A stretch of 57,714 nt of DNA, from the NCBI GenBank assembly GCA_016217965.1, contig JACRFI010000015.1:80366-138079 (forward strand), given 5' to 3'. The DNA comes from Candidatus Kaiserbacteria bacterium (GTDB lineage: Bacteria > Patescibacteriota > Minisyncoccia > Phycocordibacterales > UBA2100). A program made the translations under genes and the position numbers. Position 1 is the first letter of the stretch. Every line of letters begins with the position of its first letter. This document shows positions 2,058-7,618 of the stretch, in pieces. The notes below the pieces were generated by a model that was given only the letters and a program-made list of their open reading frames with translations, was not told the DNA's origin and ran no database searches.

Positions 2058-3296
2058 CTAATGTCCACTCGGGTACGTGCTCGGAATGCCCTCAAAGATG
2101 TCAGGACGAGATTCGCCGACGATCTGAAGGGTCCCCCATGCGCCCTTATCAAGCCGCGCGAGTGCGTGGTCTACAAGTACATATGTTCCCGGAACATCCG
2201 CAGAAAATTCAACTATCGTCGCTCCACCTGCGGGAACGATAGTACTTTGCACGTTCTTGTGTGGTTCCGACCCAATTGCCGCTTCCGGATAGACCGTGTC
2301 GAATATCTCTCCGATGAGGTGGAAGTTTGAGACGAGATTCACGCCTCCGTTACCCACATACATCCGTACTTTCTCTCCTTGCTGCACGACAACGTTCTCT
2401 TTCGATATCGCGCCCGTTTTTCCGTTGAATACGATATACTCCGGATTCCCGTCGAGCATTTTTCCCGCATCAACGACTTGGAGCCCCTTTGTTCCGCGAG
2501 AACCGGCTGTATAAAATTCGCCTTGTACTACGTACAATTCCCTATCAACCGGCGGCAACTCTTCTTCCGGTTCAATGAGAATGAGGCCATACATCCCATG
2601 AGCCATGTGATTCGCGACATTCGGGTGCGCACAGTGGTAAATGTAGAGGCCAGGATTCAGCGCCTTAAATGTCACCATTTTACTTTCTCCTGGCATCACG
2701 TCAGTCACCGTCGCGCCGCCGCCTGGGCCCGTGACTGCGTGGAGGTCAATTGAATGCATGTGGAGGCTCGTATGGTCGTTGTGAAGCGTAACGTGCACCG
2801 TATCGCCTTCACGCACGCGAAGCATTGGCCCCGGCACGGTGCCATCAAAGGTCCAATAATTGACGATAACGCCCGGCGCGATTTCCGCGAGCACCTCCTT
2901 CGTGGTGAGGTCGATATTCACAACTGCACTCTCCGTGCGGCCTGTAGCCGCAGGCACATCGCGAGCATCACGCGCGATGTCTGCCACTCTCTCAAACGCA
3001 CCAAGATGCGAGAAGAACTGAAAAACATTTTTCAAAGGAAGCGTCGGGCCGTCAGCGGGTCCGTATGTCGTAAGCCCGAACGGATACGCAAGATTTTTCG
3101 GGACACCGACCGGAAACCAGAAAAAAAGCATCGCACCGATAAAAAACAACCCGAGGAGCACCGTATTCCGAAGTGAGTGTTGTTTTCGGAGGACAATGTA
3201 AAGAAACACGACCGCTGCGGCGCCAGCAAGCACAAGACCGAATCCTTGGACGATCAGGTAGTTAGCGAGCGACCAGGCATTAATCAGGGTATCCAT
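2058..3296 (-). CDS. nirK: Membrane-anchored copper-containing nitrite reductase (NirK/AniA-like multicopper oxidase)
   Basis: Two N-terminal TM segments, then cupredoxin domains with Cu-ligand motifs MHSIDLH, YHCAHPNVANHMAHGMYG, FHLIGEIFD and LVDHALAR. Confidence 0.85.
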   Translation of the reverse strand: MDTLINAWSLANYLIVQGFGLVLAGAAAVVFLYIVLRKQHSLRNTVLLGLFFIGAMLFFWFPVGVPKNLAYPFGLTTYGPADGPTLPLKNVFQFFSHLGAFERVADIARDARDVPAATGRTESAVVNIDLTTKEVLAEIAPGVIVNYWTFDGTVPGPMLRVREGDTVHVTLHNDHTSLHMHSIDLHAVTGPGGGATVTDVMPGESKMVTFKALNPGLYIYHCAHPNVANHMAHGMYGLILIEPEEELPPVDRELYVVQGEFYTAGSRGTKGLQVVDAGKMLDGNPEYIVFNGKTGAISKENVVVQQGEKVRMYVGNGGVNLVSNFHLIGEIFDTVYPEAAIGSEPHKNVQSTIVPAGGATIVEFSADVPGTYVLVDHALARLDKGAWGTLQIVGESRPDIFEGIPSTYPSGH

Positions 3297-3299
3297 GCG

Positions 3300-3665
3300 T
3301 TAGTTGTACGGGATCTGGCATTCCTCGAAGCAATGGGCCTCACGATTCAACGTGTAGATGCGCTCGCGTCCCCGCTCCTTTGCCTCTACCGCATCGACGG
3401 ATTTGAGAACCTGCAAATGGTGCGTCACCGTCGGTTGCTTCAATTTCAGTTCCTTGGTGAGCGCACCCACAGTGAGCCCCTCTCGCTCCTTCCCAAGCAT
3501 GCATATCAGTTTGTACCTATTCTTGTCTCCGACTGCCTTAAAACATTCCGGGCACAGCCATTCTTCGCCGCTTTTCACCCATTCGGGGCGCTTATAGACA
3601 CGGTCCTCAGGGCTCTCCGCTTTTTTTATTTTTTGGCGAGTTGTCCCCACCTCGTGTTGATTCAT
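3300..3665 (-). CDS. ArsR-family winged-helix regulator with extra Cys motifs
   Basis: HTH segment LTVGALTKELKLKQPTVTHHLQVLKSVDAVEAKERGRERIYTL; N-terminal LCPEC and C-terminal HCFEEC; 3-nt gap to nirK. Confidence 0.8.
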   Translation of the reverse strand: MNQHEVGTTRQKIKKAESPEDRVYKRPEWVKSGEEWLCPECFKAVGDKNRYKLICMLGKEREGLTVGALTKELKLKQPTVTHHLQVLKSVDAVEAKERGRERIYTLNREAHCFEECQIPYN

Positions 3666-3719: not shown

Positions 3720-6101
3720 ATGAGAAGCGCACCCACGGTATCCACAGAGAACGAGGAATCAATGCGTGGCAGAGCGCCAGCTGCTAGGCCGCAACAGGTC
3801 TATGCGAAATACGTGCCAAATATACAAAAACGTGACGGCCGCATCGTTCCGTTTGAATTTGAAAAGATCGTGCAAGCGACATACAAAGCGATGCGCGCTT
3901 CAAACATGGGCTCGGCGCATGAGGCAGAGATCGTGGCGCACAAAGTAGCAAACGAGATGATGCGTATCGCGAAAACGTACAAAAACTTCCTTCCGACTGT
4001 TGAAGGCTGCCAAGACGAGGTTGAGCGCCAGCTTATGCTCTCGGATCATGTCGCTGCGGCGAAGGCATATATTCTATATCGCAATGAGCGGGCAAAAAAA
4101 CGCACAGAAGAGAGGTCAATACCTGAACATGTGCGAGAACTTGCTAAGGAGAGCGCGAAATATTTTGCAAATAACCCTCTTGGAGAATTCGTTTACCTGC
4201 GTACGTATGCTCGCTGGATTGAAAACGAGAAAAGGCGCGAGACATGGGTAGAAACTGTCGATAGATACATACATTTCATGCGCGAGAACCTTGGCGAAAA
4301 ATTAACGGAAAATGAATACACGACGTTGCGCGAGGCAATCCTCAAGCAAGAAGTCATGCCCTCGATGCGCGCTATGCAATTCTCCGGCGAGCCTGCGCGC
4401 CGCTGCAACACCTGTGTCTATAACTGCACATATACGGCACCAACCAAGCTGCAAGATTTCGCGGAGATCATGTACCTCTCTATGCAGGGATGCGGCGTCG
4501 GCTTTGCCGTTGAAAGCGAGAACATACAGCAGCTGCCGCAGATCGAAAAACAAACGGGAGAGGTTCTTTCGACCCATACTGTGCAAGATTCAAAGGAAGG
4601 CTGGTGTGATGCGCTGACAGCCGGCCTCGCGGCATGGTACGGAGGGCGCGATATAAATTTTGACTATTCTTATGTTCGCCCCGCGGGCGCAAGGCTAAGG
4701 ACGATGGGCGGAAAAGCGTCAGGGCCAGAACCTTTGCGGTCACTCCTCGTATTTGCTCGTGAGCGCATCCTAAAACGGCAAGGCCGCAGACTAAGGAACA
4801 TCGACGCGCACGATATTATCTGCAAGATCGGTGAATGTGTCGTCGCGGGCGGGGTTCGGCGAACAGCGATGATATCGCTTTCAGATCTTGATGACGTAGA
4901 AGTCCGTGACGCAAAAAAAGGACAGTTTTATCTCACGGATCCGCACCGAATGGTCTCGAACAATTCAGCCGTCTACGAAACACGCCCCACGAATACGGAA
5001 CTTATGGACGAATGGGTAGCACTTATGAAAAGCGGAACAGGAGAGCGTGGCATCTTTAATCGAGGTTCGCTAGCCGCAACAATGCCAAAGCGCCGCCTTA
5101 CATTCCTGAAAGAGAAATTTGGTGCCGTTCGACAAGGATTTTTAGGGCAAATCGGAACGAATCCTTGCGGAGAGATACTCCTTCAGCCTAAGCAATTCTG
5201 CAATCTCTCAGAAATTATAGCGCGAGCCGACGACACGGAGAAATCGCTTATGCGCAAAGCTCGCTTGGCATCGCTCCTTGGCACATACCAATCGACATTG
5301 ACGAAATTCAACTACATTTCTAAGGAATGGATCGAGAACTGCGAGAAGGAGCGGCTCCTTGGCGTTTCAATAACTGGGCAGTGGGATTCTCTAGCAGTGC
5401 GTAATTCTGCAACGCTTCGCAAGATGCGCGACGCAGCGATCGCAGCGAATAAAAAATACGCAAAGAGATTTGGCATTCCACCATCAATGTCCGTGACCGC
5501 AGTCAAACCGTCCGGAACTGTCTCACAAACCTTCAATTGCTCATCCGGACTGCATCCTCGGCATGCGCGCCATTATGTACGCCGGGTCCGCATTTCTGCA
5601 ACAGATTCTCTCTTTAAACTTATGCGCGACCAGGGGGTGCCCTACCATCCTGAGATAGGACAGGACGACGAAAACGCGAGCACGTTCGTCTTGGAGTTTC
5701 CGGTTCACTCTCCCGGCGCTTCCATTTTCAAGAACGACCTTGCCGCACTCGAGCAGTTAGAGTATTGGAAAAACGTCAAACTAAACTACACGGAGCACAA
5801 TCCCTCGGCAACCATATCTGTAGGAGACAACGAGTGGATCGGCGTTATTGAATGGATCGAAAGAAATTGGGACATTATCGGCGGGCTGTCATTTCTGCCA
5901 CGCGAAAATCACGTCTATCGACTCGCTCCGTATGAGGCAATTGACGAAGCTGCGTTCAATCGGCTCGCCGCTAATTTCCCCAACATAGATTTTTCGAAAC
6001 TTGTCACGTATGAACTGGAGGATGAGACGGAGCAGGCGCGAGAACTTGCTTGCGCAGGCGGAACGTGCGAGATCGAACCAGTACCGACGGCGAGCGGTTA
6101 G
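3720..6101 (+). CDS. nrdJ: Adenosylcobalamin-dependent (class II) ribonucleoside-triphosphate reductase with ATP-cone
   Basis: ATP-cone IQKRDGRIVPFEFEKIVQATYKAMRAS; NPCGEILL active-site motif; VKPSGTVSQ; C-terminal CAGGTCEIE cysteine pair. Confidence 0.88.
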   Translation: MRSAPTVSTENEESMRGRAPAARPQQVYAKYVPNIQKRDGRIVPFEFEKIVQATYKAMRASNMGSAHEAEIVAHKVANEMMRIAKTYKNFLPTVEGCQDEVERQLMLSDHVAAAKAYILYRNERAKKRTEERSIPEHVRELAKESAKYFANNPLGEFVYLRTYARWIENEKRRETWVETVDRYIHFMRENLGEKLTENEYTTLREAILKQEVMPSMRAMQFSGEPARRCNTCVYNCTYTAPTKLQDFAEIMYLSMQGCGVGFAVESENIQQLPQIEKQTGEVLSTHTVQDSKEGWCDALTAGLAAWYGGRDINFDYSYVRPAGARLRTMGGKASGPEPLRSLLVFARERILKRQGRRLRNIDAHDIICKIGECVVAGGVRRTAMISLSDLDDVEVRDAKKGQFYLTDPHRMVSNNSAVYETRPTNTELMDEWVALMKSGTGERGIFNRGSLAATMPKRRLTFLKEKFGAVRQGFLGQIGTNPCGEILLQPKQFCNLSEIIARADDTEKSLMRKARLASLLGTYQSTLTKFNYISKEWIENCEKERLLGVSITGQWDSLAVRNSATLRKMRDAAIAANKKYAKRFGIPPSMSVTAVKPSGTVSQTFNCSSGLHPRHARHYVRRVRISATDSLFKLMRDQGVPYHPEIGQDDENASTFVLEFPVHSPGASIFKNDLAALEQLEYWKNVKLNYTEHNPSATISVGDNEWIGVIEWIERNWDIIGGLSFLPRENHVYRLAPYEAIDEAAFNRLAANFPNIDFSKLVTYELEDETEQARELACAGGTCEIEPVPTASG

Positions 6102-6628
6102 TAGCTTGGGTGCGGTTCTTTTACTCCGGCACGATGTGCCGAAAGGCGCGCGAGCGCAAAAAGTAAGCTCGAGAGCCGATTAAGGTACGGGATGGCGTTT
6201 TCGACAAGTGTCTCGTCGTGAAGCGCAATCACCGATCTTTCCGCGCGCCTCGCGATGGTACGTCCCACATCAAGTGCACCGGAGAGCATTGTGGCGCCAG
6301 GGATCGTGAATGAGCGGATTGGCGCGATCTCTTTCTCTACTTTCGCGATAATAGACTCAAGATAGCCGACCCTCTCCCGACCGAGTGTCTTTGGGGCTCC
6401 GGCAAGCATTGCCTGTATCACGAAAAGGTCCTCCTGGACTGTTCGTACGATCCGCTTCAATTTTCGCTCTTGTACATACGCAACTGCGGCACAATATCCA
6501 AGCCAGGAATTCAGTTCATCAAGATTTCCGAGAGCATCTATGCGAGGCGTGTCCTTAGGAATGCGCTCAGAGGCCACGTAGAGCTGAGTTGTCCCCGTGT
6601 CCCCTTTCCCTGTATAGAGCATTGTCAT
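6098..6628 (-). CDS. pduO: Cob(I)alamin adenosyltransferase, PduO type
   Basis: MLYTGKGDTGTTQLY...DALGNLDELNSWLG...FTIPGATMLSGALDVGRTIARRAERSV...YLNRLSSLLFALAR. Its stop codon overlaps the nrdJ stop (convergent). Confidence 0.88.
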   Translation of the reverse strand: MTMLYTGKGDTGTTQLYVASERIPKDTPRIDALGNLDELNSWLGYCAAVAYVQERKLKRIVRTVQEDLFVIQAMLAGAPKTLGRERVGYLESIIAKVEKEIAPIRSFTIPGATMLSGALDVGRTIARRAERSVIALHDETLVENAIPYLNRLSSLLFALARLSAHRAGVKEPHPSY

Positions 6629-6651
6629 ATACTAGCAACATATAGATAATC
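6622..6651 (+). promoter_or_regulatory. Promoter for DUF4430/DUF6580 pair; predicted leaderless
   Basis: TTGTCA-17 nt-GATAAT, then 7 nt to ATG (6658), so the start site would fall at or next to the start codon. Confidence 0.45.
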
Positions 6652-6657
6652 ATCAAT

Positions 6658-7083
6658 ATGTCAATTATGAAAAAATGGACGCAGGCGCTCGCTGTTCTTC
6701 TTGCAATCGCCGCGGGAATCGCATTCTTCACGCTTTCAATAAGTCGCCCGCCGGCGCCGATCCAGGAAACGCGCACCATAGTAACATCGCTTGCAATTCA
6801 TGGCGTGCTGCAACCGACTGATGTCCAAATTCCTGAAGGAACGTCCGCTCTTGCTATGCTAAAAGAGGAGCTCGGGAAAAGGCGGCTCTTGATTGTCACC
6901 AAAGAATATACGGGCCTCGGTACTTTAGTCGAACAGATAGGGCTGTATAAAAATGGCGATGAGGACAAGTATTGGACGTATATGGTCAACGGCACATTTG
7001 CAAACGTTGGTGCGGACGCGTATGTAGTTCAGAACTCGGATAGTATTGAGTGGACTTTCTCGCCGCCGCCGGATACGTACTAA
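6658..7083 (+). CDS. DUF4430 (transcobalamin-like C-terminal) domain protein with N-terminal membrane anchor
   Basis: KYWTYMVNGTFANVGADAYVVQNSDSIEWTF is the DUF4430 signature; hydrophobic N-terminus. Start could be the second Met at 6667. Confidence 0.8.
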   Translation: MSIMKKWTQALAVLLAIAAGIAFFTLSISRPPAPIQETRTIVTSLAIHGVLQPTDVQIPEGTSALAMLKEELGKRRLLIVTKEYTGLGTLVEQIGLYKNGDEDKYWTYMVNGTFANVGADAYVVQNSDSIEWTFSPPPDTY

Positions 7084-7087
7084 AATC

Positions 7088-7618
7088 ATGCAAAAAAAAT
7101 ACATCGAAATTGCTCTCCTCGTTTTCCTCGCTGCCGGCTCTCGCCTTGTGCCGCACCTCCCGAATATGACGGCCGTCGGGGCTGTCGCACTCAAGGCGCG
7201 GGCACGATACGGACCGATGGGACTCGGGATCCCTGTATTGGGCATGTTGCTTTCCGATATCGCGCTCGGTTTCTATGATTTGCGGCTCCTCACATCGGTG
7301 TATGCGTCATTCGCGCTCTCTGGATCGCTTGGCGTATTTCTAAAGAATATTTCGTTGCCTAGACTTGCTCTCATCCCTGCGATTGGTTCGACAATCTTCT
7401 TTCTTAGTACTAATACCGCCGTTTGGGCGCTATCTGCGTGGTATCCGCATACGCTCTCTGGATTACTTGCCTGCCTCGTTGCCGGACTTCCGTTCTACTG
7501 TTATATGCTCGCAGGCGATACTCTCTTCACCAGCTTCGTATTCGCTCCATCGCTTCTTGAAAAATCTCTTACGGTTGGAACAATTCTTCAGGCACGAAGC
7601 GCACCGATGAGACAGTAG
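7088..7618 (+). CDS. DUF6580-family putative ECF transporter substrate-binding (S) component
   Basis: SRLVPHLPNMTAVGAVAL...MLLSDIALGFYD...VYASFALSGSLG...GDTLFTSFVFAPS; multi-TM; 4-nt gap after the DUF4430 gene. Start reassigned to 7088. Confidence 0.7.
   Translation: MQKKYIEIALLVFLAAGSRLVPHLPNMTAVGAVALKARARYGPMGLGIPVLGMLLSDIALGFYDLRLLTSVYASFALSGSLGVFLKNISLPRLALIPAIGSTIFFLSTNTAVWALSAWYPHTLSGLLACLVAGLPFYCYMLAGDTLFTSFVFAPSLLEKSLTVGTILQARSAPMRQ

Follow-up and report, generated by a model that had tools for sequence, protein, structure and literature searches.

A putative vitamin B12 salvage and utilization locus in a Kaiserbacteria genome, with the membrane protein DUF6580 as a candidate cobalamin carrier

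How might a small-genome bacterium supply vitamin B12 (cobalamin) to a B12-dependent ribonucleotide reductase (RNR) when no EcfT of an energy-coupling factor (ECF) module can be detected in its genome? This question is raised by four adjoining genes in a 57,714-nucleotide stretch of DNA (the window) from a Candidatus Kaiserbacteria bacterium, a member of the Patescibacteria whose genome comprises 982 kb in 23 contigs and is 94% complete. The four genes had been described in an earlier note made from the sequence alone, and our searches of the window proteins with Pfam and NCBIfam profiles confirm them:

3720-6101, + strand: nrdJ, class II (adenosylcobalamin-dependent) RNR; 793 amino acids (aa); ATP-cone, RNR alpha and barrel
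6098-6628, - strand: PduO-type ATP:cob(I)alamin adenosyltransferase; 176 aa; PF01923, TIGR00636
6658-7083, + strand: DUF4430 protein with a transcobalamin C-terminal-like beta-grasp/SLBB domain and an N-terminal hydrophobic anchor; 141 aa; PF14478
7088-7618, + strand: DUF6580 integral membrane protein; 176 aa from its ATG; PF20221

We consider it likely that these genes form a compact locus for B12 salvage and use, in which DUF6580 carries cobalamin without an ECF module. By this route, (i) the anchored DUF4430 protein would bind cobalamin outside the membrane, as the transcobalamin beta-domain does; (ii) DUF6580 alone would carry it across, probably through S-component-like toppling and facilitated diffusion; (iii) PduO would adenosylate the imported corrinoid, a step that would trap the corrinoid inside the cell and yield the coenzyme; and (iv) NrdJ would use coenzyme B12 to reduce ribonucleotides without oxygen. 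The same sequence of capture, uptake, adenosylation, and use had been put forward in the earlier note, and it is supported here by profile matches, an S-component fold, riboswitches in relatives, and a linkage that persists despite non-orthologous replacement of partner genes. The direct observations are the identities of the genes, the fold, the profile relationships, the linkage, the riboswitches that control related loci, and the lack of an EcfT match in 118 sampled genomes and of a BtuC match in the nine with DUF6580; B12 binding, the direction and energy source of transport, and the trapping step are our inferences.

The gene order is as previously described: the convergent genes nrdJ and pduO share 4 bp at their stop codons, while pduO is divergent from the DUF4430-DUF6580 pair, with 29 bp between the start codons of pduO and DUF4430. 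The latter two genes form a tight pair with a 4-bp gap, reading away from pduO; an alternative, TTG-started reading of DUF6580 begins at 7046. The DUF4430, DUF6580, and PduO profiles all match above their cut-offs, with PduO recognized by both PF01923 (Cob_adeno_trans; 6.8e-44, 150.4 bits against a cut-off of 24) and TIGR00636 (155.8 bits against 108.45). Only the best NCBIfam match of nrdJ, TIGR02505 (adenosylcobalamin-dependent RNR; E 1.3e-93), falls below its cut-off, at 314.5 bits against 340.05; its translation shows the thiyl-radical loop NPCGEI, with the radical-loop cysteine, and a C-terminal CAGGTC pair of shuttle cysteines.

The window DUF6580 protein (PF20221, 4.5e-35) is a predicted ECF-free B12 transporter with an S-component fold. 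The sole PDB sequence match of the DUF6580 profile is 6fnp_A (E 4.9e-4), which belongs to ECF-CbrT, where CbrT is the B12 S component (PMC5997447); no BtuM entry appears among these matches. The AF2 model, with a predicted local distance difference test (pLDDT) score of 96.6, returned the S components FolT, ThiT, RibU, and PanT as its high-probability Foldseek matches (TM ~0.51-0.70). Thus, the suggestion that DUF6580 resembles an ECF S component holds for the fold and the CbrT profile match but not for a role as an ECF subunit, as EcfT was not found. Invariant residues of the family include D57, G61, Y119, and G125, and nearly invariant ones are R19, H23, N26, and Y72; part of the conservation at residues 104-113 stems from our genome scan itself, which used the pattern F[FY]LxTNxAVW. 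A search for DUF6580 on plasmids gave no match.

DUF4430 (PF14478, 9.8e-13, over its cut-off) is the predicted extracytoplasmic B12 binder. When the family profile was compared with the whole PDB, the matches were almost exclusively transcobalamin-1, transcobalamin-2, and intrinsic factor, with best values of 4.8e-6 in one search and 7.2e-9 (transcobalamin-1) in another, which bears out the proposed relationship to the transcobalamin C-terminal domain. A larger secreted partner of 600-830 aa, in which a DUF4430-like domain at the N terminus is combined with an alpha/alpha toroid, is present in six of the nine DUF6580 genomes of the order sample described below, as well as in G087 (genomes and loci are labeled G and L, respectively), and adjoins DUF4430 except in G048; altogether, it is encoded in 7 of the order's 12 genomes with DUF4430. 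Its model (pLDDT 89) combines a beta-grasp with a central beta domain and a helical ring, and Foldseek related it to terpene cyclases and complement proteins as well as to transcobalamin, haptocorrin, and intrinsic factor. The window genome, like G049 and G095, is a minimal version with the small DUF4430 protein only.

Co-occurrence was examined in 118 genomes of one order, in which DUF6580 was found in 9, DUF4430 in 12, PduO in 64 (over cut-off), and class II nrdJ in 74, the last as relatives of the window gene with 53-70% identity. In all nine of its genomes, DUF6580 is accompanied by DUF4430 (Fisher 2.5e-11) and nrdJ (Fisher 0.012); these values are rough, as is the binomial below, since the genomes are related by descent. 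By the earlier note's own criterion, DUF genes occurring in the clade without nrdJ or pduO would have spoken against its reading, but the outcome favors it: we found a class II RNR and an adenosyltransferase in every DUF6580 genome: PduO in seven, and BtuR directly beside nrdJ (PF02572; 1.5e-54 and 1.1e-50) in the remaining two, G049 and G066, which have no PduO. The replacement of PduO by BtuR is a non-orthologous one inside the same locus. All four genes lie in one operon in G095, and at least one of nrdJ, an adenosyltransferase, and DUF4430 lies in a cluster with DUF6580 in G072, G049, G066, and G032. The recurrent linkage in the order has a crude binomial of 2e-8.

The linkage extends far outside the order. 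Our scan across GTDB turned up 464 DUF6580 loci, and we retained the 80 best; most are metagenome bins, whose individual contigs may be misassigned. A DUF4430, toroid, RNR, or adenosyltransferase gene lies within ~6 kb of DUF6580 in 56 of the 62 Patescibacterial or unassigned loci. In other Patescibacteria, the adjoining RNR is NrdJ_Z, a different class II lineage; the nrdJ profile used across these loci also catches distant RNRs, and the checked sample proved to be NrdJ_Z. Because DUF6580 is again found linked to nrdJ, an adenosyltransferase, or DUF4430 in further families of the order and well beyond it, the four-gene neighborhood is not due to chance. That the linkage is kept while partners are swapped (PduO for BtuR, and one class II RNR lineage for another) points to function more than to a merely inherited gene order.

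Cobalamin or adenosylcobalamin riboswitches (RF00174/RF01482) were found directly upstream (~30-130 bp) of the DUF4430 or toroid gene at ten loci: before DUF4430 in L120, L147, L176, L180, L181, L193, G087, and, below the gathering score, G032, and before the toroid gene in L123 and L144. Among these, L193 (binned Thermoleophilia) has the order riboswitch-DUF4430-DUF6580, with the same pair as in the window, and L176 (binned Actinomycetes) has riboswitch-DUF4430-toroid-DUF6580. In L192 (Verrucomicrobia), a riboswitch, a BtuB-like receptor, a Diphthami_syn_2 protein (ATP-pyrophosphatase family), DUF6580, and a BtuF-like protein follow one another in this order, so that DUF6580 belongs to a riboswitch-BtuB operon.

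An EcfT gene elsewhere in the genome, which the earlier note had considered, was not found: EcfT/CbiQ (PF02361) was absent from the window genome and from all the other genomes of the 118, while 10 of 14 control genomes were positive; EcfA-type ATPases were not searched for. BtuC (FecCD) was likewise absent from all nine DUF6580 genomes, that of the window included, with positive controls, and BtuC-type matches across the order were few and weak. With EcfT missing throughout the 118 genomes and BtuC from all nine DUF6580 genomes, DUF6580 probably works alone, like BtuM.

A second S-component-like family, marked by the motif RLLPxRxPNIEP, was found in 6 of the 118 genomes and never together with DUF6580. 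It is operonic with nrdJ-pduO in G087 and G102, lies beside nrdJ in G091, and in G053 directly follows a sub-threshold cobalamin riboswitch. It was recorded at the following loci:

L108:10634-11185, second S-component-like family
L217:6338-6973, second S-component-like family
L226-L231, second S-component-like family

Several observations weigh against an ECF-free cobalamin carrier in the window. Solitary CbrT, without its ECF module, neither supported growth nor transported (PMC5997447), and therefore an S-type fold by itself is no guarantee of solitary transport. The Foldseek E-values of DUF6580 are weak (best, 0.19), and both CbrT and BtuM are missing among the best 50 matches listed. No cysteine, the key residue of BtuM, is conserved in 79 DUF6580 proteins, 33 of which have no cysteine whatever, and the window protein itself deviates at near-invariant positions (P29A, F36K, G38R, and Y130L). 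Furthermore, neither the window nor its genome gave a riboswitch match, and the toroid protein was searched for in that genome and not found. Finally, both DUF6580 and the second S-like family are missing from 61 of the 74 genomes with nrdJ, and therefore nrdJ does not require a DUF6580 importer; those 61 genomes have no EcfT and mostly no BtuC.

Some of these points would also fit a true ECF S component, whose module is too diverged for PF02361 or whose ATPase is borrowed from another transporter. Such a role would agree with the S-component fold, with the inactivity of CbrT on its own (PMC5997447), and with the ECF form seen in Latilactobacillus curvatus, where genes for an ATPase, EcfT, and an S component accompany a DUF4430 gene (cf. 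PMC1796856). We nevertheless regard it as unlikely, given the contrast between the EcfT counts in the order and in the controls, the lack of any recurrent ATPase or EcfT-like neighbor of DUF6580 in the gene maps read, and the ability of BtuM to function without a module (PMC6072759).

The cargo, too, might differ, with the pair importing a part or a precursor of B12 (cobinamide, alpha-ribazole, or dimethylbenzimidazole) in place of complete cobalamin, as the Spirosoma locus L186 (cobT-cobS-cobC-DUF6580) would suggest, where DUF6580 follows lower-ligand assembly genes. CblT is a known alpha-ribazole transporter, which also counts for a precursor as the cargo. However, the Patescibacterial partners are an adenosyltransferase and an adenosylcobalamin-using RNR, DUF4430 is related to proteins that bind whole cobalamin, and no cobT or cobS was seen among the genes read at the Patescibacterial loci, although the genomes were not searched for them; we therefore hold a precursor to be improbable. 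Least probable of all, and already disfavored, is an accidental neighborhood in which the DUF pair transports something other than B12. While the pair is divergent from pduO in the window, and hence not in one operon with it, and many DUF6580 loci outside Patescibacteria have no marker gene within 6 kb, this explanation conflicts with the riboswitches that precede the pair in several lineages, the recurrent linkage in the order, and the profile matches to B12 proteins.

We also considered whether nrdJ is the sole RNR, which would make B12 essential. This was ruled out by a class I RNR on another contig of the window genome, C4 (L232:6429-10193), comprising NrdA (901 aa) and NrdB (332 aa); B12 therefore serves an additional, oxygen-independent enzyme and not the only route to dNTPs. 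No other B12-binding (PF02310) protein was found in this genome. Elsewhere, RNR proteins of ~1,210 aa occur at L117:1784-5416 and L126:1596-5246, and the one in L117 probably carries an intein, as its NrdJ_Z match is broken by a stretch with intein-type matches.

Known systems share parts of this arrangement. The Lactobacillus delbrueckii cluster nrdJ-cbrS-cbrT-pduO (PMC5997447) has the same outer genes, a class II RNR and PduO, around an S-component-type B12 protein that the DUF6580 profile matches; however, CbrT needs its ECF module, whereas the 118 genomes here are without detectable EcfT, and DUF6580 is a separate Pfam family. BtuM of Thiobacillus denitrificans is a solitary S-type B12 transporter with an adenosyltransferase neighbor in a genome without an ECF module (PMC6072759). 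DUF6580 resembles it in its S-component fold, in its EcfT-free genomes, in its adjoining adenosyltransferase, and, as predicted from the genes alone, in its trapping logic, but has an extracellular DUF4430 partner and lacks the invariant cobalt-ligating cysteine, which rules out DUF6580 being a BtuM. Burroughs and colleagues predicted in 2007 that bacterial transcobalamin-like SLBB proteins scavenge B12, and described toroids and paralogous operon pairs (PMC1796856). The proteins here likewise have a DUF4430-type domain, often with an alpha/alpha toroid, and form paralogous pairs in one operon; in contrast, the earlier cases generally lie beside CbiO/CbiQ (ECF), whereas here the partner is DUF6580, with no CbiQ, and the window genome has the small protein only. 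Like BtuCDF, DUF6580 is predicted to import B12 across the cytoplasmic membrane, but no BtuC was found in the nine DUF6580 genomes of the order, and even in L192, with its BtuF-like protein, no BtuC or BtuD occurs among the surrounding genes read. Our literature search found no paper that names DUF6580, and the ECF-free form built on it, as well as its place in Patescibacteria, appears to be new.

Other genes near DUF6580 and in the window were also recorded. A Diphthami_syn_2 protein lies directly beside DUF6580 at L192:4627-5340 (Verrucomicrobia) and L138:6473-7255 (Thermoanaerobaculum bin), and possibly represents an unknown step in corrinoid use. In Kapaibacterium, a secreted lipoprotein directly precedes DUF6580 (L185:274-1299); it is perhaps a beta-propeller and recalls BtuG. 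Downstream of DUF6580 in L122, a group I intron match (L122:3132-3364) lies among consecutive tRNA genes. In the window itself, a copper nitrite reductase with an N-terminal hydrophobic region (2058-3665, - strand; TIGR02376, 316.7 bits, over cut-off) adjoins an ArsR/SmtB-type regulator, in what is a small-genome Patescibacterium.

A B12-dependent RNR is encoded in over half of the genomes sampled from the order, yet EcfT was detected in none. The locus offers a vitamin-capture mechanism for such small-genome bacteria and a genomic marker for B12 scavenging, and it gives DUF6580 a specific, testable role. For the family as a whole, which ranges over Patescibacteria, Bacteroidota, Verrucomicrobia, and some Actinomycetota, we lean toward DUF6580 being a widespread single-protein B12 transporter that replaces BtuCD and ECF modules, is fed in some of its range by transcobalamin-like surface proteins, and has no known ATP-driven membrane step. 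If true, this would place a second family of solitary S-type B12 transporters beside BtuM, and would help in studying the ATP-independent movement of a large vitamin by S components.

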